Made by a program: the position numbers and the translations under genes | NCBI RefSeq assembly: GCF_000242915.1 | Contig: NZ_AFRZ01000001.1 | Coordinates: 1,426,001-1,490,000 of the forward strand | Origin: Sulfurimonas gotlandica GD1 | GTDB lineage: Bacteria > Campylobacterota > Campylobacteria > Campylobacterales > Sulfurimonadaceae | Direction of reading: 5' to 3' | DNA: 64,000 bases | The notes under the pieces: generated by a model | Databases searched by the model: none | What the model was told of the DNA's origin: nothing | The model's input: the letters and a program-made list of their open reading frames with translations, nothing else | Part shown: positions 12,315 through 22,194 of the stretch, piece after piece | Layout: every line of letters begins with the position of its first letter | Position numbering within the stretch: position 1 is the stretch's first letter

Positions 12315-14132
12315 TTAAAAGTCTTTTTGAATTTCTTTTAGCATTACAACAGGTGGATTTGGAAGTTGTGGAAATGCTCTTTGCACTGCATTAGTTACCC
12401 ATTGAGGATAGATTCTAAAGTTTAGTTTTACAACTACTTTTAGAGGATATTTCAAACTTGCAGCATCTGTGATATCGTATGATTCTACTCGTCTCTCTCC
12501 AGCTGGAATTCTAGTGTCGCTAATAAGTTTTTTGTATCTCCAAAAGAGAAGTCCTACCGGTTTTAAGTTCTCATCTCCAAATACTTTCATAAAAGGCCTT
12601 GCATCTGTGTCAAGGTTTCCATCGCTCTTGAGTTTACCACTGCTAAAGACAACTTTTGAGTCTTTGTCAGTTACAGTTATGTCAAGCCAAAGCTCTCTAA
12701 AGTCAGAGACTCCAGTCGGGAGGTGATGTCCTGCTCCAACATTTTTAACGCCGACTAAGACTTTGCCATTTTTTATATCTACATCTATATCTGCAGAAGT
12801 GCGAAGCAGTTGTATAGACTGATCTTCATGCTCTTTACTTTTTAAACCTGATAGGAAGTGGTTTGAACCAGAGAAGTAGTGAACTTTAATATTCTCTTTA
12901 ACAGTTCCACCAGTAGTAGACTGACCTTTAAGAGGTGCTAATTTTCCATCTTTAAGATAAGTCATATGACAATCGATGCAACTCTTATGTTTGCTAGGGT
13001 CTTTAGGATTGTTAAAAGGTGATTTTTCCCACTCTTTAAAAGTAGAAACTACTGATCTTTTTGAATCATCCGGCAAGAACTCATCATGACAAGATGCACA
13101 GTAAGCACTTTCTTTATAAAGTTTATTTGAATAACTCTCTTTGTGGACTACTGGATTAGAGTTTATAAACTTTTCACTAAGCCACTTTTCTACTTTTGAG
13201 TTGCTATCTTCAAAAACATACTTTTTTCTATTTGTAATATCAAGAGTATAAGAGCTGTTTCCTTTAGAATCTGCTTTTTTAATCCTGTGACAAGTCACAC
13301 AAGAAACACCTTGCTCTAGTCTTGAATTACCGTGAGACTTTAACTCATCTATAAGACTTTGTGAGCCTTTTTCAAAAAGAGAACTTGGCATAGAGTTCAT
13401 ATCCATTCTGTGTGTAGATCTCTTTTGTTTGGTAGTAACTGCACTAGGGTTGTGGCATCCCATACACCACTGTCTAAACTCATCTCCCATATCTGCTCCG
13501 GCTAAGTTCTCCATAACCATATAGTATGGGTTGCTGCCGGTTATATGCCTGTGGTTTGAGTCTGCCCACTGGTTGAAGATATCTTCATGACAAGACTTAC
13601 ACTTAGCAGAGTTAGTCCAGTCTTCATTATGATATCTGCTTGCACCATCTTCAAGTTGTATGTTAGTAAGTTTCTCGGAACTGTAAGAGATACTTGGATA
13701 TGAGATACCAATTAATAGAGCGACTACAACAAATGGTTTGGCGTTAAAGTCAATTTTCTTTCTTGCATGTAAAAAGAGAAAATATAGTAAAACAAATGAT
13801 CCAAATAGATGAATATAGTATGAAACAAGTCCTATGGCATCTCCTCCAGGATTTCCCACAAAGAAAAGGTAAAATCCACTAGCTACTATGAAAAAAAGCA
13901 GAATTCCAAGTATCACACCGCTAGTACTTTTTGCACGTCTAACTATCATGTACTCATAGGTATGCAGGTTTACATATGGCAAAAGAAGAAAGATAGCTAT
14001 AAAGGCAGAACTTAAAACATGCACTGCTTGAATTATTCTAAAATATTCCCAGCTCAAGTTGAAGATGCTAAGTTGAAATATTCCGCTAAAGAACATCAAT
14101 ATTATAAGTATTTTCATATATACATTTTTCAT
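12315..14132 (-). CDS. Membrane-anchored pentaheme cytochrome c
   Basis: A 605-residue protein. Residues 1-145 hold four membrane spans, with two histidines (H38, H109) that could bind a b-type heme. The periplasmic part carries five CxxCH motifs starting at C178, C223, C278, C345 and C385, then a heme-free beta-rich domain (about 430-600) with a GAGHHLPTG segment. The arrangement resembles cytochrome c554-like multiheme proteins fused to a cytochrome b-like membrane anchor, which would move electrons between the quinone pool and the periplasm. It overlaps the triheme peroxidase gene by four bases, so it may supply that enzyme with electrons. Exact family not identified. Confidence 0.8.
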   Translation of the reverse strand: MKNVYMKILIILMFFSGIFQLSIFNLSWEYFRIIQAVHVLSSAFIAIFLLLPYVNLHTYEYMIVRRAKSTSGVILGILLFFIVASGFYLFFVGNPGGDAIGLVSYYIHLFGSFVLLYFLFLHARKKIDFNAKPFVVVALLIGISYPSISYSSEKLTNIQLEDGASRYHNEDWTNSAKCKSCHEDIFNQWADSNHRHITGSNPYYMVMENLAGADMGDEFRQWCMGCHNPSAVTTKQKRSTHRMDMNSMPSSLFEKGSQSLIDELKSHGNSRLEQGVSCVTCHRIKKADSKGNSSYTLDITNRKKYVFEDSNSKVEKWLSEKFINSNPVVHKESYSNKLYKESAYCASCHDEFLPDDSKRSVVSTFKEWEKSPFNNPKDPSKHKSCIDCHMTYLKDGKLAPLKGQSTTGGTVKENIKVHYFSGSNHFLSGLKSKEHEDQSIQLLRTSADIDVDIKNGKVLVGVKNVGAGHHLPTGVSDFRELWLDITVTDKDSKVVFSSGKLKSDGNLDTDARPFMKVFGDENLKPVGLLFWRYKKLISDTRIPAGERRVESYDITDAASLKYPLKVVVKLNFRIYPQWVTNAVQRAFPQLPNPPVVMLKEIQKDF

Positions 14133-15340
14133 AGTGCGCCCTTATTTGTAACTTTATAATCTACTACATCGCCCTCTAGAGCTTTTAAAAATTCTACTAT
14201 CTCATCAATCTGATCATCAGTAAGATGCATACCAAGTTGGTGTTTGCCCATAAGAAATACAGCTTCTCTTAGCTTCGCTATTGCACCGTTATGAAAGTAT
14301 GGTGAAGTCTTTGTAACATTTCGAAGCATCGGGACTCTGAAAAGTCTCTCACCCTCTTTACCCATAAATCCACCCTTGTTTTCAAATGGAAATGGATGAT
14401 ACATCTTAAGATTGAAGTCAAAGTCACTGACTTCCCTACCTTTAGCAGTTTCGTTAAAAGAGTTAGTAACGTCTACTATACTGTTATAGTCCCTAAGAGG
14501 AAATTTCTGTATGCTCTGTCCGCCGACAGTTACACCTGTGTGACACCCTTTGCAGCCGAAGTTTAAAAAATGAGCTAAACCTTTTTTGGCTTTTTGGTTC
14601 ATAGCATCGTTGTCTCCGTCTAAAAATCTATCGTAACCACTGCGAGTTACAAGTGTCTTAAGATATGCAGCGATTGCTTTTTGAGTGTTTTCAAAACTCA
14701 CCTTGTCAAAGGAGAGTGCAAACTTTTTTACATACTGGGCATCTGAGAGAAGTCTTCTTTCAACTTCTTCTTTTGAGAGGTTCATCTGAGTTGGATCTTG
14801 TATAGAGAGTCCGACTTGCTCTTCTATAGTTTTAATGTGACCATCCCAAGTTTGAAATTTTGCAAGAGCAGCATTTAGAGTTGTAAGCGTATTTAAGTGG
14901 AATGGATTTTCTGCTCCTCCATGTCCAACTGCCGTCTCAAATCTGTCAGTTCCACTTTGGTCAGAGAGATGACAAACAACACAGTCAGTCTTGTCATTTG
15001 TTTTAGAAGTAAGAGCTTTGAGATAGATGTTTTTGTCTTTTAAATCTTTACTCAAAACGTGACAAGTTGCACAACTTATATCTTTGTCTTTAGAGAGCAT
15101 CTTTTCATGGTAAAGGTCACGACCGAGATCAATCTTCTCTTTACTCAATCTATTTTTGGGAGTATCAACTAACTTTAAAAGATCTTCATAAGTAGCAGGT
15201 GTACTAGACATATTTCGTGATAACGCAGCTGTTCTTAAGCTCTCATCGCTGAACTGCCGTTTTTCTTTTGTCGGCAAAAGAAAAGATACAGTAGTTAAAA
15301 GTAGTATTATAAATATAAATACATAAACAAAAAATTTCAT
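14129..15340 (-). CDS. Triheme MauG/cytochrome c peroxidase-family protein
   Basis: A 403-residue periplasmic protein with an uncleaved-looking N-terminal anchor (about 1-22). The usual bacterial diheme peroxidase motifs are present: SCATCH (C90-H94) for the peroxidatic heme and GCKGCH (C263-H267) for the electron-transfer heme, plus the conserved FRVPMLRNV and SPYFHNGA segments. A third site, CVVCH (C120-H124), sits 26 residues after the first and is absent from standard two-heme enzymes. E. coli YhjA-type peroxidases also have three hemes, but their extra heme is in an N-terminal domain, so the layout here differs. It is first in an operon with the pentaheme cytochrome and has an AraC-type promoter. 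Confidence 0.85.
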   Translation of the reverse strand: MKFFVYVFIFIILLLTTVSFLLPTKEKRQFSDESLRTAALSRNMSSTPATYEDLLKLVDTPKNRLSKEKIDLGRDLYHEKMLSKDKDISCATCHVLSKDLKDKNIYLKALTSKTNDKTDCVVCHLSDQSGTDRFETAVGHGGAENPFHLNTLTTLNAALAKFQTWDGHIKTIEEQVGLSIQDPTQMNLSKEEVERRLLSDAQYVKKFALSFDKVSFENTQKAIAAYLKTLVTRSGYDRFLDGDNDAMNQKAKKGLAHFLNFGCKGCHTGVTVGGQSIQKFPLRDYNSIVDVTNSFNETAKGREVSDFDFNLKMYHPFPFENKGGFMGKEGERLFRVPMLRNVTKTSPYFHNGAIAKLREAVFLMGKHQLGMHLTDDQIDEIVEFLKALEGDVVDYKVTNKGAL

Positions 15341-15597: not shown

Positions 15598-15987
15598 TCA
15601 TTCCTCAAAATGTGCAAAAGCACCTTCAACACTTAGTACATTTTTATAACGTGTATTTGTAATTCTTACATTCTTAGTCTCTAAATCACATACAGCTATC
15701 CTAAAATTTGATCCCATATATGGCTCGATTATACAAATAATCTTCTGATTAATTTGGCGTGTTGCATAGATATTACCTTGTAAATTATGAAAAAAATATT
15801 TTGGATAGCTCAATGGTGTAATCTCAACAATATTTATGCTTGTTCTATGTTCTAAGCTCTGAGCGATAAGACTAGCATCTTCATAGTTGTCAAACTGTAC
15901 ACACCAATCATCAAATATTTTATTGAATCGGTTTAATTCTTCGTCTAAAAAACCGCCTGCTGGTGATTGCAAAGCAAAAATACTCAT
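15598..15987 (-). CDS. Uncharacterised soluble protein
   Basis: A 129-residue protein with no signal peptide or membrane segment. It has a mixed alpha/beta look, with an N-terminal acidic helix (DEELNRFNKIFDDWC) and several beta-strand-like stretches later. I do not recognise a domain. It stands alone between the peroxidase promoter and the PhnD-like gene, separated from the latter by about 140 bases, and uses the same strand as its neighbours. Codon use matches the surroundings, so it is probably a real gene. Confidence 0.65.
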   Translation of the reverse strand: MSIFALQSPAGGFLDEELNRFNKIFDDWCVQFDNYEDASLIAQSLEHRTSINIVEITPLSYPKYFFHNLQGNIYATRQINQKIICIIEPYMGSNFRIAVCDLETKNVRITNTRYKNVLSVEGAFAHFEE

Positions 15988-16131: not shown

Positions 16132-16962
16132 TTAGATTTTATTTTCTAACAAATTCTGATCTTGCATAGCTTCATATAAAGCGTCATAGCCTTTTAGCTC
16201 TTCTGGAGTGATTTTAACCCATTTGTTAAGACCTTCCATAATCATCATCTTTTTGATGATAGGCTCACGCGGGTCTTGCGATAAAATCATATTGGTAAAC
16301 TCTTCACACATCTGTGCATCTGCATCTGGCATAACTGTAAAGTTACAGTGACAATATCCGTCAGTTTGGTAAAAAGATTCTATTTCACCCTCTGGAAAAA
16401 GACCTTCTTCAATGATTCTTATCCATGTCGTACTTCCTATAGCACCTGCATCTATATCACCGTTCATAATTGCATTTAATACATCAAATTCACTTCTTCC
16501 AGTGTCTCCATGTTTTCCTAAGTCTGAGTTAAATCGAACCAACTCCAAATCTGTTTGCGGGTTCAATCCCTCTTTTTGTAAAAATGCATAAGGAATGATT
16601 GAAGCTTGTGCAGAATCTGAACTACCAAGTCCAAATTTCTTCCCTTTTAAATCTTCAATTGAATTAATATTTTTACTACTCTTTGCAACAAAAATTGATT
16701 TAAAATCAATATCAGTATCTCTCATAATTAAAGCTTTAGCCTTGTTTTGTGTAGCATGTGAGGTTCGAATCCATGCTACATTTGTATTCCAGGCCACATC
16801 TATCATCCCTTTTTGTAAAGCTTCGATTTGTGCTTCATAGTTTGAAAACAGAACATAGTCCAATCTTACTCCATACTCATTTGAATAGTCTCTTATAATA
16901 TCCCATATAGGAACCACTTTCGCATCGTAAGCAACTGCCCCTAGCATTATTGTTTTTTTCAT
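16132..16962 (-). CDS. Cytosolic PhnD-like substrate-binding protein
   Basis: A 276-residue protein of the PhnD / phosphate-phosphonate periplasmic-binding fold: VAYDAKVVPIWD, the YEAQIEALQKGMIDVAW segment, the hinge DLKGKKFGLGSSDSAQAS and a second lobe ending IMNGDIDAGAIGST. I start at the internal Met (MKKTIML) with an AAGGAT site; a start 45 bases further upstream would overlap the preceding gene and place that site inside. No signal peptide is present with either start and no ABC permease or ATPase is nearby, so it is unlikely to serve a transporter. It may bind the substrate or product of the two oxidative enzymes upstream in the operon. An unusual CHCNF segment occurs in the second lobe. 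Ligand unknown. Confidence 0.8.
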   Translation of the reverse strand: MKKTIMLGAVAYDAKVVPIWDIIRDYSNEYGVRLDYVLFSNYEAQIEALQKGMIDVAWNTNVAWIRTSHATQNKAKALIMRDTDIDFKSIFVAKSSKNINSIEDLKGKKFGLGSSDSAQASIIPYAFLQKEGLNPQTDLELVRFNSDLGKHGDTGRSEFDVLNAIMNGDIDAGAIGSTTWIRIIEEGLFPEGEIESFYQTDGYCHCNFTVMPDADAQMCEEFTNMILSQDPREPIIKKMMIMEGLNKWVKITPEELKGYDALYEAMQDQNLLENKI

Positions 16963-16972
16963 TTTCTTATCC

Positions 16973-18100
16973 TTAAGGAATTTGTTGATTAGTAATTGCT
17001 TTTCCAAGCCAAATAGATAAAACGTCTACACCTGGTGCCATTATCTGCGAAGCCAAAGAGTCTCTGAGCAATCTTTCTATTGGTAGTCTTTTTGCATAAG
17101 CTGTTCCTCCGCCAATTTTCATAGCTATAGTACACACTTCTATCGCTAGTTCAGATGCATTGATTCTTGCCGCTATTATTTGAGTCAGGGCATCTGCTTT
17201 AGCAGAAGCTCCTGAATTTGCAGCAGCCATTGTAAAATGTTTTGCACTTTGTGCTTTTAAATATATTTTTGCTAAATCATTTTGAACAGTTGGAAGAAGG
17301 CTCAAACTATCTCCGTTTGTATATTTTCTTTGCATCGCGTGGTTTGTTACAACTTCACAAGCATTTAGTGAAATACCTGCAGAAACAGAAGCTAAACCTG
17401 TTATAAAAAATGGAGCAACAACACTGAATACTTGTTCCAATCCACTTCCCTCAACACCGATTCTGCTATCTTCACCTAAACGAACATCATTTAAATTCAT
17501 CGGCATAGAAACATTTCCACGCATTCCTAGTCCATCCCAACCATTCTCTTCAAAGCTCACACCTTCGTTGGTATGTGGAACTAACCAGTTATCTAATCCA
17601 TCTTTGTTAAGTGTTGATGATAACACAAGGTAATAGTTCACAAATCCAGCGGCTGTTACAAAGCTTTTTCTGCCGTTTAAGATGTACGAATCGCCACTCT
17701 TACTTAACTCAATCTCTGGCTGGTAAAAATGTGTTCCTGTGCCTGTTTCGCTATAAGCTAAGGCAAGAGTAATCTCTCCCTTTGCAATTTTAGGAAGAAT
17801 TTCTTCTTTGAGTTCTTTTGAACCATGCAGAACAATACACATCGTTGCAACATTATGCATCATATAAGAAAGAGCGGTCGTTGCGCAACTCTCTGCTATG
17901 GCTTGTATAACTTCCACATGCTCAACCAGACCTAATCCTTGACCAGAAAACTCTTTTGGTACAAGAAGACCCATATAACCATTGTGTTTTAAAGCATCAT
18001 AGCTTTTGCTTGGAAACTCTGCTTTTAAATCAGCTTCTAATGTATGTATTGCAATATTCTCTTTTGCAAATTCTATTGTTGTTTCATATATATTTTTCAT
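16973..18100 (-). CDS. Acyl-CoA dehydrogenase-fold flavoprotein without the catalytic Glu
   Basis: A 375-residue protein with the three ACAD domains: N-terminal helices (1-110), the beta domain with LALAYSETGTGTHF and a DGLGMRG segment (about 111-215), and the C-terminal helix bundle. The loop that holds the catalytic Glu in medium- and short-chain enzymes (IYEGT type) reads IMAPGV, with Ala355 in the Glu place. The alternative position used by isovaleryl-CoA and long-chain enzymes is a Phe by my alignment. It therefore probably does not dehydrogenate acyl-CoA. ACAD-fold flavin monooxygenases such as DszC and SfnC also lack this base, so an oxygenase or oxidase role is possible. Eight bases separate it from the TusA/diiron gene. 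Confidence 0.82.
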   Translation of the reverse strand: MKNIYETTIEFAKENIAIHTLEADLKAEFPSKSYDALKHNGYMGLLVPKEFSGQGLGLVEHVEVIQAIAESCATTALSYMMHNVATMCIVLHGSKELKEEILPKIAKGEITLALAYSETGTGTHFYQPEIELSKSGDSYILNGRKSFVTAAGFVNYYLVLSSTLNKDGLDNWLVPHTNEGVSFEENGWDGLGMRGNVSMPMNLNDVRLGEDSRIGVEGSGLEQVFSVVAPFFITGLASVSAGISLNACEVVTNHAMQRKYTNGDSLSLLPTVQNDLAKIYLKAQSAKHFTMAAANSGASAKADALTQIIAARINASELAIEVCTIAMKIGGGTAYAKRLPIERLLRDSLASQIMAPGVDVLSIWLGKAITNQQIP

Positions 18101-18108
18101 AGTAATCC

Positions 18109-19368
18109 TTACATAAAATTTGGTGTATGCACTTTTGAAATATCGTGCGCCAAATCTTCATCTATTCCAATATCAACCAAGCGTTTAACACGATTAATAT
18201 CCATTCTTTTTTTCAACTCTGTTACAGCTTCATAGCCTTTTTTGTAACTTGCTATAGAGTCGTCTCCTCCAACAAGGGTAGACATTGCTTCAAGCAGTAG
18301 CGTTGATTCTCCATTTAACTCATCCATAAACTCTTTTCTTTTAAATGCTGCCTCTTTGAGAGCATTTATCTTTTTAGGGTTTTGTTCTAATACAGATTTT
18401 AAATGTGCCATTCCATAAGCCACATGTCTTGACTCATCACGTCTTACATATTGCAGTATTTTCTTTGTTGTAGCATCTGGCATATACTCTTCAAGAAACT
18501 TCAGTAAATCTATAAAAGTACCTTCTCCCATTACATGTAGTAAAAATGATGATTTAACATAATCGTCTTCGTTAAAAAGTGAATAAAGAGATCTTTGTGT
18601 TACGCTAGATGAGTATTGCATACCACCGCCATTAGCATGTACTCGTTTTGTAAAAACTTCTATATGCCTTGCTTCATCATTCATTAAAGAACCTAGAAAC
18701 AGTGGAATCTCCGTATAGTACGGATTCATCTGTGAAATGAATTTACCAGGAATATAAAGAGCAGAAAATTCATTTTCAATAAGATAGGTCATAATTTGAC
18801 AAATCGCCTGCTCAAATTTTGGGTCATAATCTGGTATTTCATTCCAAGCAATATCCGAAGTCGCATTCCATTGGGCATTTTTTGCTTCTTCATAGAGTTT
18901 TGATACAGGCTCCGCCCAGAGTTGTTCTTTATGATTTATGCCAAAATCATACTCTATGCTTCCATTTTCTATGATAGTGCCACGCCCCATTAAGCCATGA
19001 TTTGGGGGAGCTTTAGGCAATATAGAGTCATTACCATGAGGATTCCAATCGGACATCTTTGGAGAATTTGTATCTATACCCTTCATTGTGAATCCAGACA
19101 TTGAGTGTTGGTTAAAATGAGAAGCTTTTGTGTTTAATACTTTGTAGCAGTATTGATCTTTGAGGAGTTTTTTCTCTAGAAGCTTATACCCTTTGAGATT
19201 ACACCAGCCTTGCAGTTCCAACTCAATTTTCGGGTTTGTTGAGACGATTTCTATTGTTTCGTTTTCTTTAACAAATAAAAAAGCATTTTCTAACTTGAGA
19301 AATAGTGCTTTACCTATTGGTAAATTTCCAACAAAAATGACGCCTGAGTGGTTGTTTAAATTGTTCAT
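18109..19368 (-). CDS. TusA-like domain fused to a ferritin-like diiron protein
   Basis: A 419-residue two-domain protein. Residues about 9-80 follow the TusA/SirA sulfur-carrier pattern (VGNLP, ENETIEIVS, GWCNLKGYKLLE) but lack the Cys of the usual CPxP motif, reading LPIGKA instead. Residues about 150-350 are a ferritin-like four-helix bundle with diiron ligands visible as E198 or E200, E232 with H235 (DEARH), E282 and E312 with H315 (DESRH). Such centres occur in oxygenases, desaturases and oxidases. No signal peptide, so cytosolic. It heads a three-gene operon with the ACAD-fold and PhnD-like proteins. The fusion suggests chemistry on a sulfur-bearing or carrier-bound substrate, but this is inference and no function is known to me. 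Confidence 0.8.
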   Translation of the reverse strand: MNNLNNHSGVIFVGNLPIGKALFLKLENAFLFVKENETIEIVSTNPKIELELQGWCNLKGYKLLEKKLLKDQYCYKVLNTKASHFNQHSMSGFTMKGIDTNSPKMSDWNPHGNDSILPKAPPNHGLMGRGTIIENGSIEYDFGINHKEQLWAEPVSKLYEEAKNAQWNATSDIAWNEIPDYDPKFEQAICQIMTYLIENEFSALYIPGKFISQMNPYYTEIPLFLGSLMNDEARHIEVFTKRVHANGGGMQYSSSVTQRSLYSLFNEDDYVKSSFLLHVMGEGTFIDLLKFLEEYMPDATTKKILQYVRRDESRHVAYGMAHLKSVLEQNPKKINALKEAAFKRKEFMDELNGESTLLLEAMSTLVGGDDSIASYKKGYEAVTELKKRMDINRVKRLVDIGIDEDLAHDISKVHTPNFM

Positions 19369-19487: not shown

Positions 19488-19517
19488 TGAAATGGTAAAA
19501 TTAATTTTACCATTTCA
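19488..19517 (-). terminator. Perfect 30-bp palindrome after the SDR gene
   Basis: A 15+15 perfect palindrome rich in A and T, located 15 bases past the end of the SDR gene at 19532 and 120 bases before the start of the TusA/diiron gene. As RNA it folds into a stem of about 13 bp with an AATT loop. It has no long T-run, so an operator role is also possible. A smaller inverted repeat (ATCTG-N5-CAGAT, 19430-19444) lies nearer the downstream gene. Confidence 0.5.
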
Positions 19518-19531
19518 ATTGTGTTATGAGC

Positions 19532-20344
19532 TTAGAGTCCAAAAGTCTCTTTAACCTTAAGCTCAAATGCTTCATCACTTAACTCTTTTCTCATAGGAAC
19601 AAAAGTTTCAGCTTCTCCACCTACAGGTATGAAAATATTAGAGTTTTCATCTTCGATGATTTTTTTAACTGCGTCTGCTATTGGTTGAGGACTTGGTCCT
19701 TCGTTAATAGCTTTTGCAACGATAGGCACAAAGTGAGAAACAAGTTCTTTGTATGGAGAGTCTTCAGCAGTCGTCTGTGCATTTGCAACAAGCCCATTTT
19801 TAACAAAGTTTGTACCGAAAAGTCCTGATTGAATAGAGTGAACTCTGATGTTAAATGGAAGAGTCTCAAATCTTAAAGAGTCAACTATGCCTTCTACAGC
19901 ATACTTTGAAGCATTATAGTGTGCTAAAAGAGGAAGACCCATCTTTCCTAAGAAAGAAGATATGTTTATGATTACTCCGCTTTTTGCCTTTCTCATGTGT
20001 GGAAGAACGGCGCGAGTAACTTTTAGCAGACCAAATACATTTACATCAAACTGGTTAAACATCTCTTCATCAGTTCCATCTTCAACTGTTGCTAAAAGAC
20101 CGTAACCTGCATTATTTACAAGAACATCGATCTTGCCTTCTTTATGCATAATCATCTCTACAGCGTGGTCAATACTGGCACTCTTTGTTACGTCTATATA
20201 AATACTTTTGAGTGAAGAGTCAAAGTTAATTGCATCTGCATCTCTTGTTCCTGCATATACTGTATAACCGTTATCAGACAAAAATTCTGCAGTTAGTTTT
20301 CCCATTCCTGAGCTTGCACCTGTTATTAAAACTACTTTTGACAT
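19532..20344 (-). CDS. Short-chain dehydrogenase/reductase (SDR), copy 1
   Basis: A 270-residue classical SDR oxidoreductase. The NAD(P)-binding loop TGASSGMG is near the N-terminus, NNAGYG follows, and the catalytic Ser, Tyr and Lys are in NISSFLG and the HYNASKYAVEG segment. The substrate is unknown. A paralog with the same C-terminal motif (PMRKELSDE) lies at 21376-22194, and the AraC regulator gene lies between them. Its promoter (20373-20450) carries the direct-repeat operator that also precedes the peroxidase operon, so it is probably induced by the AraC protein. Confidence 0.88.
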   Translation of the reverse strand: MSKVVLITGASSGMGKLTAEFLSDNGYTVYAGTRDADAINFDSSLKSIYIDVTKSASIDHAVEMIMHKEGKIDVLVNNAGYGLLATVEDGTDEEMFNQFDVNVFGLLKVTRAVLPHMRKAKSGVIINISSFLGKMGLPLLAHYNASKYAVEGIVDSLRFETLPFNIRVHSIQSGLFGTNFVKNGLVANAQTTAEDSPYKELVSHFVPIVAKAINEGPSPQPIADAVKKIIEDENSNIFIPVGGEAETFVPMRKELSDEAFELKVKETFGL

Positions 20345-20372
20345 ATTGAACTCCTATAATTAATTTACATCA

Positions 20373-20450
20373 AGTATATAGAAATCAAATGTTACCTTCA
20401 ATGACTTTTTAGCAGTAGAAGAATTTTATTTTAGCACTGGAGGAATTATT
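20373..20450 (-). promoter_or_regulatory. AraC-type direct-repeat promoter of SDR copy 1
   Basis: Minus-strand -10 TATACT (20378-20373), 17-bp spacer, -35 TTGAAG (20401-20396). Direct-repeat cores TTTTAGCA lie at 20407-20414 and 20429-20436, again 22 bp apart and again starting five bases beyond the -35. The geometry is identical to that at 15370-15447. The distal end touches the stop codon of the AraC regulator gene. Confidence 0.7.
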
Positions 20451-21366
20451 TTTTAAGCAGGTCTTTTGGATAGACACCATAGTGCTCGTAAAAGAGTTTG
20501 GAAAAGTGTCCTTGATGTTTGTAGCCTACTTCTTTGGCAATCTCACCGATGTTAAGTAGTTGTTCTTTTAGAAGCAGGTTGGCTTTTTCAAGGCGTAGTT
20601 TTTGGACATAACCATAAATGGTAGTTTTGTACACTTTTTTAAAAATCTTTTTCAGACTTGTCTCGTTTGTAGCACATAGATGCGCTAGTATTTCGATGGT
20701 CGGGGGAGAAGCAAAACTACGCAGTAAAATGGCTTTTGAAGACCTTGAAATGCAGATTTCATCATCACTTAGTTCATCGTCTATCATATCAAGCAGATCA
20801 AACCTGTGAATCATAAATTCCAAGACATTATGCTCGCATCTAATGCTGTTCATGTGTGTATCTGACTTAGTATTTATTATCTTATCTATTATGTAAAGGC
20901 TGAGTGCATCTATGGGTTGAGTGTCGATGAGTTCACATGAGACTTCTTCTTGGACATTGTTGTACAAGAAGTTTATGACTTCACTTTGGCTCGAACTGAG
21001 GTAGCGTTTAAAAATAAAGTCGGCTATAAAAAGTACAAATATTTCCGTCTCTTTTGTCTCATTTATAGTAAGGGTTATATCTTGTCTTGATGAGGTGAAG
21101 ATGCTGATGCTGTCATTTTTTACATCAAAGCATTTCTTTCCTATGTGGTCTTCTATCTTAAAGCTTCCCTTTTTAGTAACTGGGATAGCTACCATTCTGT
21201 CTAGGTTTTTTACATGAATGCTTTGCTCTTTTTGCGAGTTTAGATATATGTCAAAAAAGACTATGCCATTTGAGATATCAACTCTGGTTATATGCTCTTC
21301 TTTGTTCTCGTAACTCTTGGTTATTTTGTAGCTTGTATCGGTTATGTTAAAGAAAAAGCTATCCAT
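20446..21366 (-). CDS. AraC-family transcriptional regulator
   Basis: A 306-residue regulator. The C-terminal third (about 205-306) has the two helix-turn-helix units of the AraC/XylS family, including SPPTIEILAHLCATNETSL and the signature IGEIAKEVGYKHQGHFSKLF with the PKDL ending. The N-terminal part is a beta-rich ligand domain similar to AraC regulators that sense small organic molecules; the ligand is unknown. It lies between two SDR genes on the same strand. The nearby 22-bp-spaced direct repeats at two promoters fit the way AraC proteins bind, making this the most likely regulator of both. Confidence 0.88.
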   Translation of the reverse strand: MDSFFFNITDTSYKITKSYENKEEHITRVDISNGIVFFDIYLNSQKEQSIHVKNLDRMVAIPVTKKGSFKIEDHIGKKCFDVKNDSISIFTSSRQDITLTINETKETEIFVLFIADFIFKRYLSSSQSEVINFLYNNVQEEVSCELIDTQPIDALSLYIIDKIINTKSDTHMNSIRCEHNVLEFMIHRFDLLDMIDDELSDDEICISRSSKAILLRSFASPPTIEILAHLCATNETSLKKIFKKVYKTTIYGYVQKLRLEKANLLLKEQLLNIGEIAKEVGYKHQGHFSKLFYEHYGVYPKDLLKK

Positions 21367-21375
21367 GATTTGCCA

Positions 21376-22194
21376 TTATAAGTTGTAGTGTTCTCTGACT
21401 CTTCGCTCAAAATCTTCATCACTTAACTCTTTTCGCATCGGGATGAATTTTTTAGCTTTATCGCCAATGGTCGCACGAGCAGGAAACTTGTCGTTTTCTA
21501 TAATCTCTAAAATCATCTCGCCGATTTCTGAGGGAGCGTTTCCGTTGTTTATCTGATCTACTATGACAGGAGCGAGTTTAGATACAAGAGCCGAGTAAGG
21601 CGATTCTTTAGAAAAAGTATCTTGGTTTGTAACAAGGTTATCTCTAGCAAAGTTTGTGTCAAAAAAACCGGGCATAATGGAATGAACTCTTATGTTGAAG
21701 TCTTTTAACTCATAACGAAGAGAGTCTGTGATGCCTTCAACCGCGTACTTGCTTGAGTTGTACATAGTAAGAAGCGGAAGACCTATCTTGCCTAAAAATG
21801 AGCTAATATTTATAATAATCCCGCTTCTGTTTTTTCTCATAAGAGGGATGATAGCCTTAGAGACTCTAAGCGTTCCAAATACGTTTATGTTGAATTGTGC
21901 GAGCATCTCATCTTCTGTAACATCTTCAACTGTAGAGACTAAACCGTACCCTGCATTATTTACAAGAATGTCGATACGTTTATGCTCTGAGTAGATAAAA
22001 TCAACTGCTTTTTGGATGTTGTCTTGGTTGGTGATATCTAACTCTAAAGGGATGATATTTTTTTGCTTTAAATCTTGGAGTTTAGATGCATCTCTACTAC
22101 CGGCATAAACAATAAAATCACCCTTTGCCAAATACTCAGCAGTAGCTCTGCCCATACCGGATCTAGAGCCTGTAATAAGAACAATCTTTTTGAT
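21376..22194 (-). CDS. Short-chain dehydrogenase, copy 2, with apparent ATC start
   Basis: An SDR of 272 residues if translation starts at 22194. The first ATG in frame (22155) falls inside the cofactor loop and would remove the first strand and TGSRSG, making an inactive protein. Upstream the frame reads KKIVLITGSRSGMG, matching the paralog at 19532 (SKVVLITGASSGMG). An ideal AGGAG site lies five bases before an ATC codon at the exact place where ATG is expected; no in-frame ATG, GTG or TTG exists between there and the next stop. The catalytic NISSFLG and MYNSSKYAVEG segments are intact. Possible causes are a true ATC start, a start-codon mutation or a base-call error. Confidence 0.75.
   Translation of the reverse strand: MKKIVLITGSRSGMGRATAEYLAKGDFIVYAGSRDASKLQDLKQKNIIPLELDITNQDNIQKAVDFIYSEHKRIDILVNNAGYGLVSTVEDVTEDEMLAQFNINVFGTLRVSKAIIPLMRKNRSGIIINISSFLGKIGLPLLTMYNSSKYAVEGITDSLRYELKDFNIRVHSIMPGFFDTNFARDNLVTNQDTFSKESPYSALVSKLAPVIVDQINNGNAPSEIGEMILEIIENDKFPARATIGDKAKKFIPMRKELSDEDFERRVREHYNL

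Follow-up and report, generated by a model that had tools for sequence, protein, structure and literature searches.

What is the function of a three-gene operon of Sulfurimonas gotlandica GD1 that encodes a TusA-diiron protein, a flavoprotein of the acyl-CoA dehydrogenase (ACAD) fold and a PhnD-like binding protein (SBP)? The operon occupies positions 16132-19368 of the window, the 64,000-nucleotide stretch analysed here (contig NZ_AFRZ01000001.1, positions 1,426,001 to 1,490,000), where the list of open reading frames (ORFs) places all three genes on the minus strand. A preliminary description read them as a cytosolic oxidative pathway with its own substrate-holding protein, perhaps for an organosulfur or organophosphorus compound. 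The first part of this proposal is supported, in that the operon is conserved and cytosolic and includes a dedicated binding protein as well as a flavoprotein lacking the catalytic base, its oxidative nature being probable. The proposed class of substrate is not supported, as the STSG loop of the binding protein is lost and both genome co-occurrence and gene neighbourhood point to selenium. We consider it rather likely that the operon is an O2-dependent selenium-salvage module which dealkylates an organoselenium compound to feed selenophosphate synthetase (SelD). The selenium link of the module is well supported, and the element handled is probably selenium rather than sulfur or phosphorus. 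The chemistry, substrate and reactions, including the order of steps, the use of O2 and the monooxygenase role, are predictions from sequence. The operon comprises the following features:

18109-19368, minus strand: TusA-diiron protein, 419 amino acids (ORF, Pfam/NCBIfam, alignment)
19123-19368, minus strand: TusA-like domain, about residues 1-82 of the diiron protein (Pfam, alignment)
16973-18100, minus strand: ACAD-fold flavoprotein, 375 amino acids (ORF, Pfam/NCBIfam, alignment)
16132-16962, minus strand: PhnD-like cytosolic SBP, 276 amino acids (ORF, Pfam/NCBIfam, starts of homologues)

A conserved gene set in changing surroundings

In a sample of the window's phylum, the SBP was searched for in 298 genomes and the diiron protein in 296. 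The SBP was present in 40 of the 298 and the diiron protein in 35 of the 296, and every genome with the diiron protein also carried the SBP. The order diiron-ACAD-SBP, on one strand and with mostly short gaps, was found at all 20 loci with a diiron gene that were examined (the window, 17 fetched phylum loci and two Brachyspira contigs), and the module was present in further Spirochaete loci. Such a recurrence is far more than chance would produce. The expectation that the three genes are neighbours in other genomes, on which the preliminary description had staked its reading, was therefore borne out. In a distant Spirochaete, G455, the SBP gene is flanked by the diiron and ACAD genes. Flanking genes were mostly unrelated between loci, and the same gene order amid mostly unrelated neighbours marks the set as a mobile, horizontally spread module. 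The diiron protein of the window shares 63-65% identity with those of another family but 49% with that of G179, a member of its own family, which suggests lateral transfer.

Association of the module with selenium users

Three observations led us to test a link to selenium. A Paracoccus plasmid carries a TusA-like domain fused to core-MetE directly upstream of selA; in Miltoncostaea a pair of ACAD and SBP genes lies ~7 kb from selD-selA-selB; and the best model match of the SBP outside its own group was the putative selenate SBP TIGR04553 (1.2e-28). In Sphaerotilus, the gene for a TIGR04553 member adjoins selD and mnmH. Across the phylum, intact SelA was found in 40 of 40 module genomes compared to 163 of 256 others (Fisher p=1.4e-7), with SelA over the cut-off in 203 of 296 genomes. 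At the genus level, which is less than a full phylogenetic correction, all 15 module genera fell within the 36 genera with SelA out of 58 (p=2e-4). Within the window's family, the only genomes with SelA were G000, G297 and G179, and two of these, G000 and G179, were the only ones with the module. The first two Brachyspira module genomes had intact SelA, and in the Spirochaetes as a whole SelA was present in 6 of 7 module genomes versus 15 of 73 others (p=0.001) and SelD in 7 of 7 versus 21 of 69 (p=5e-4); G455, the SelA exception among these carriers, has SelD. MetE, used as a comparison trait, was present in most module genomes and showed no significant association with the module (p=0.06). 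Restriction to SelD/SelA genomes in the two phyla sampled is what a selenium-utilisation module should display. Low-scoring SelA-like matches with the N-terminal part missing occurred in G071, G073, G086 and further members of their genus, which is consistent with a decaying selenocysteine (Sec) pathway.

Gene linkage pointed the same way. In G179, selD (TIGR00476, 1e-103) lies directly upstream of diiron-ACAD-SBP in the same direction, and the same contig carries selA, selB, tRNA-Sec and a formate dehydrogenase gene split by UGA. In Brachyspira G458, yqeC (TIGR03172) stands just upstream of the module, and a xanthine-dehydrogenase-like operon is close by. The selD operon of G179 and the yqeC neighbour of G458 thus supply the gene linkage of a selenium-utilisation module. 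The window's own genome has selD, selA, selB, tRNA-Sec and the selenium membrane protein YedE/FdhT, whose gene stands beside the sel genes.

The surroundings of the module in G458, together with a xanthine-dehydrogenase-like operon near it in G399, could also mean that it helps to mature the labile selenium cofactor found in selenium-dependent molybdenum hydroxylases. No YqeC was found, however, among the 40 module genomes belonging to the window's phylum, and the total was only 3 of 47, so that SelD selenium activation, not the selenium cofactor, is the common factor. This explanation is largely refuted and we find it barely credible.

Several observations weigh against selenium salvage as the role of the module. 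In most module loci the ~8 kb examined contains no selenium gene, and many Sec users lack the module, which must therefore be accessory. Phylogenetic structure in the species sample has been corrected for only in part. As to the actinobacterial relatives, two of the three plasmids that were searched, those of M. vanbaalenii and R. opacus, carry no SelD (plasmids only, chromosomes not searched), and M. tuberculosis, a carrier of Rv1678-Rv1681, is not known to use Sec. On both of these grounds, the actinobacterial branch (Rv1679-Rv1680) may do something else.

The same co-occurrence and selD-operon evidence would fit a selenium module without salvage, which might produce or shield a low-molecular-weight carrier of selenium, or else detoxify selenium that has leaked from the Sec pathway in methylated or oxidised form. 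Selenium proteins with TusA-like domains are known, YedF among them (PMC5322559). A required carrier is excluded since many Sec users do without the module, and a dedicated cytosolic SBP with two probable oxygenases seems better suited to scavenging something scarce than to detoxification. We therefore regard a carrier or detoxification role as unlikely.

A cytosolic binding protein without an oxyanion loop

The SBP matched Phosphonate-bd in Pfam (1.9e-30). The absence of a signal peptide and of a nearby transporter, both noted in the preliminary description, was confirmed: the protein opens directly with the first strand of its fold, without the ~25-35-residue export sequence of a close periplasmic relative, and comparison of the fetched loci showed no transporter conserved beside its gene. 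It has neither the export signal nor the transporter partner of a PhnD or phosphonate ATP-binding cassette (ABC) binding protein. The residues Y42, N59, R81, D84, D116-S117, H151-G152-D153, E158 and H205-C206 are invariant in its family. Compared to a selenate SBP, the module SBPs retain Y42, D55, W58, R81, D84, S117 and H151, but they have lost the oxyanion-binding STSG loop that characterises binding proteins of the selenate/PhnD type. DSxQA is found instead, and in place of the loop N59, D116, D153, E158, H205 and C206 are invariant. The TIGR04553 protein is further distinguished by being exported, by its ABC transporter genes and by its intact STSG loop; the module SBP is cytosolic and without a transporter. 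Because the loop is lost, the ligand of the module SBP is probably not an oxyanion. Phosphonate and selenate were rejected as ligands on the same ground. The SBP scored 310.7 bits over its full length against the Rv1680 SBP-like family NF049985, below the cut-off of 400, and by this score is a distant relative of that group. A scan of viral contigs showed no SBP relative.

A flavoprotein without the catalytic glutamates

The second protein matched the N, M and C domains of Acyl-CoA_dh in Pfam (6e-22 to 1e-14). Where the ACAD base would stand (Glu in the YEG motif), the protein has Ala355, part of an invariant 'MAP' motif, and the catalytic Glu is replaced in all 25 aligned ACADs. The isovaleryl-CoA-dehydrogenase-type Glu position is Phe in an alignment read by eye, so that neither catalytic Glu of an acyl-CoA dehydrogenase is present, as had been described. 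In this loss the protein resembles DszC/SfnC-type oxygenases, and oxygenase activity is predicted. It lies outside the SfnB (6.5e-23, 81 bits, cut-off 431) and DszC families (9e-16, 58 bits, cut-off 850) and also outside the Rv1679/FadE16 family NF049984 (271 bits, cut-off 600), of whose group it is, judged by sequence similarity, a distant relative.

The matches to SfnB and DszC, the similarity of the SBP to PhnD/SsuA and the overlap of sulfur and selenium chemistry are all in keeping with organosulfur or organophosphorus degradation. Yet the fetched loci show no conserved neighbour with a sulfur or phosphonate function, the module is tightly confined to selenium users, and its SBP has neither the STSG loop nor a transporter. 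We judge such a degradative role distinctly unlikely.

The TusA-diiron protein

The diiron protein consists of a Cys-less TusA-like N-terminus, a ferritin-like diiron domain and a near-invariant C-terminal tail, HTPNFM. Its Pfam matches to DUF455 (7e-7) and TusA (1e-4, residues 23-72) were both under the curated cut-offs, and the CPxP cysteine of TusA is absent (Pfam, alignment), in agreement with the preliminary description. Alignment placed the putative diiron ligands at E198/E200, E232-H235, E282 and E312-H315, and both this E, ExxH, E, ExxH set and the HTxNFM tail are kept in all 20 aligned homologues. The best NCBIfam match was to the R2-like ligand-binding oxidase (R2lox; 2.9e-11, 43 versus a cut-off of 194 bits), and the match to AurF was also sub-threshold (NCBIfam/Pfam). 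The ferritin-like ligand pattern is common to R2lox, AurF, DUF455 and the diiron protein, which differs from them in its extra TusA domain and conserved tail and in a score far under the cut-off. An AlphaFold2 model built from only 3 sequences had a pLDDT of 39. Remote matches were found on plasmids of Burkholderia, Xenorhabdus and Streptomyces, the last being AurF-like and surrounded by acyl-carrier and AMP-ligase genes. A TusA-like domain in selenium metabolism is also found in the YedF/FdhU and YedE/FdhT pair; YedF has a CPXP motif and a DsrE domain, whereas the window protein is Cys-less and fused to a diiron domain.

NCBIfam contains no model for the diiron protein, and to that extent the statement that no described system has this set was correct; for relatives of the ACAD and SBP proteins (Rv1679, Rv1680) it holds families of unknown function.

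An exchangeable third component

Loci L043-L045 lack a diiron gene, and there the ACAD and SBP genes are followed by genes for core-MetE-like and OsmC-like proteins. In G187, also without a diiron gene, core-MetE adjoins the SBP gene. G300 has a stop in the SBP frame, and core-MetE was looked for there and not found. The variant core-MetE proteins keep the zinc-ligand and homocysteine-site positions of MetE (alignment with full MetE; positions from PMC7857596). In Actinobacteria the ACAD and SBP pair lies between an Rv1678-like membrane protein and a radical S-adenosylmethionine (SAM) protein of the Rv1681 family. The TusA-core-MetE fusion of the Paracoccus plasmid is a relative of the variant's MetE, and its TusA-like domain lacks the CPxP cysteine. 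Taken together, these variant operons point to ACAD and SBP as the constant core, with an exchangeable third part (diiron, core-MetE or radical SAM).

The Rv1678-Rv1681 set (NF049986, NF049984, NF049985, NF049973; function unknown in NCBIfam) contains a homologous ACAD and a cytosolic SBP-like protein, adjacent and in the same order as in the module. It differs in having a radical-SAM enzyme and a membrane protein where the module has TusA-diiron, and the window proteins score under the cut-offs of its families. The literature searched gave no function for Rv1679, Rv1680 or Rv1681.

The core-MetE variants raise the question of folate-independent methionine synthesis with the flavoprotein as methyl provider. 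Four diiron-less genomes have core-MetE with conserved active-site positions beside ACAD and SBP, and in MesD/MesX a core-MetE acts with a partner that depends on O2 and probably on flavin (PMC7857596). That partner is, however, DUF1852 and not ACAD/SBP. The commonest version of the module, with the diiron protein, has no methyltransferase, the window's module being without MetE, and most module genomes also have full MetE (p=0.06 versus the rest). A methionine route is thus highly unlikely.

Two further rows were seen on plasmids. Paracoccus L063 (4881-10627) carries TusA, DsrE, two hypothetical proteins, the TusA-core-MetE fusion and selA, possibly a separate sulfur/selenium system. M. vanbaalenii L052 (4336-11814) carries a carboxymuconolactone decarboxylase, deiodinase-like proteins, a glutaredoxin, a major facilitator superfamily transporter and an Rv1678-Rv1681-like set; its deiodinase-like protein has Cys and not Sec.

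A proposed route of selenium salvage

Returning to selenium salvage, the simplest task common to all variants would be C-Se cleavage of an alkylated selenium compound. We propose that, in the cytosol of bacteria that use or tolerate oxygen, the SBP would capture a trace non-oxyanionic selenium compound, most likely methylated or otherwise alkylated. The base-less ACAD-fold flavoprotein would oxygenate this compound with reduced flavin and O2 in the manner of DszC, and the diiron protein would then remove the alkyl group oxidatively, with the TusA-like domain as a putative docking or hand-over module. The freed selenium would go to SelD. In the variant operons the C-Se bond would instead be cleaved by the zinc core-MetE methyltransferase with homocysteine or by the radical-SAM enzyme. 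Non-enzymatic methylation of selenide by S-adenosylmethionine has been discussed (PMC10418091) and would provide an internal source of alkylated selenium compounds.

Demethylation of organoselenium feeding Sec synthesis has a precedent in type I mlp clusters and in the use of dimethylselenide by Methanococcus (PMC10418091). Like the module, type I mlp/SdmA-C (Kountz & Balskus, PMC10418091; Niess & Klein 2004, cited there) is accessory and enriched in Sec users, 87% of mlp carriers being reported with Sec machinery (PMC10418091). It is proposed to demethylate organoselenium to selenide, and the MetE variant of the module likewise has a zinc methyltransferase. Unlike the module, type I mlp depends on corrinoid and belongs to anoxic environments (Mlp methyltransferases, corrinoid protein, activase). 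No Mlp methyltransferase or corrinoid protein was found in the operon or its shared neighbours, and the ACAD, SBP and diiron proteins are absent from the mlp account in PMC10418091. We suggest tentatively, as a serious possibility, that the module is an O2-dependent counterpart of the corrinoid organoselenium-demethylation clusters, with an exchangeable C-Se-cleaving part (TusA-diiron, zinc core-MetE or radical SAM) that serves SelD supply.

How bacteria acquire selenium for selenoproteins is an open question; according to a 2022 review, a high-affinity transport system for selenium had yet to be identified (PMC9312934). The diiron-ACAD-SBP genes are not among the candidates in the selenium comparative-genomics literature searched. 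A comparable enzyme set was likewise not found in the literature searched, the coverage of which was open and partial, so that a description in a closed journal is possible. If correct, our proposal would describe an oxygen-dependent selenium-salvage route carried on a compact mobile operon of selenium users including Brachyspira, and with it a previously undescribed selenium source for aerobic and microaerobic bacteria. It would also assign a role to genes that are at present annotated under fatty-acid or phosphonate metabolism but encode diiron, ACAD-fold and cytosolic binding proteins, and it offers a lead for M. tuberculosis Rv1679-Rv1680, which have no described role in the literature searched.

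Gene starts and flanking genes

The diiron and ACAD genes are separated by 8 bp, and the ACAD and SBP genes by about 10 bp if the SBP gene starts at ATG 16962. This start is most likely the right one, rather than TTG 17007, because homologues begin there; a start at TTG 17007 would overlap the ACAD gene. Directly downstream of the operon (15598-15987) lies a 129-amino-acid ORF with no Pfam or NCBIfam match. Further downstream on the same strand (12315-15340) are genes for two haem proteins, one resembling multihaem cytochromes and containing CxxCH motifs, the other resembling di-haem peroxidases. One further feature lies between the operon and the short-chain dehydrogenase (SDR) gene upstream of it:

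19488-19517, no strand assigned: perfect 30-bp palindrome

This palindrome, TGAAATGGTAAAATTAATTTTACCATTTCA, is found about 120 bp 5' of the diiron gene and directly after the SDR gene. It has no counterpart upstream of related operons, and may be a terminator or operator. The region upstream of the operon (19532-22155, minus strand) encodes two similar SDRs on either side of an AraC-type regulator (20446-21366), and related SDR and regulator genes likewise stand together at locus L031.

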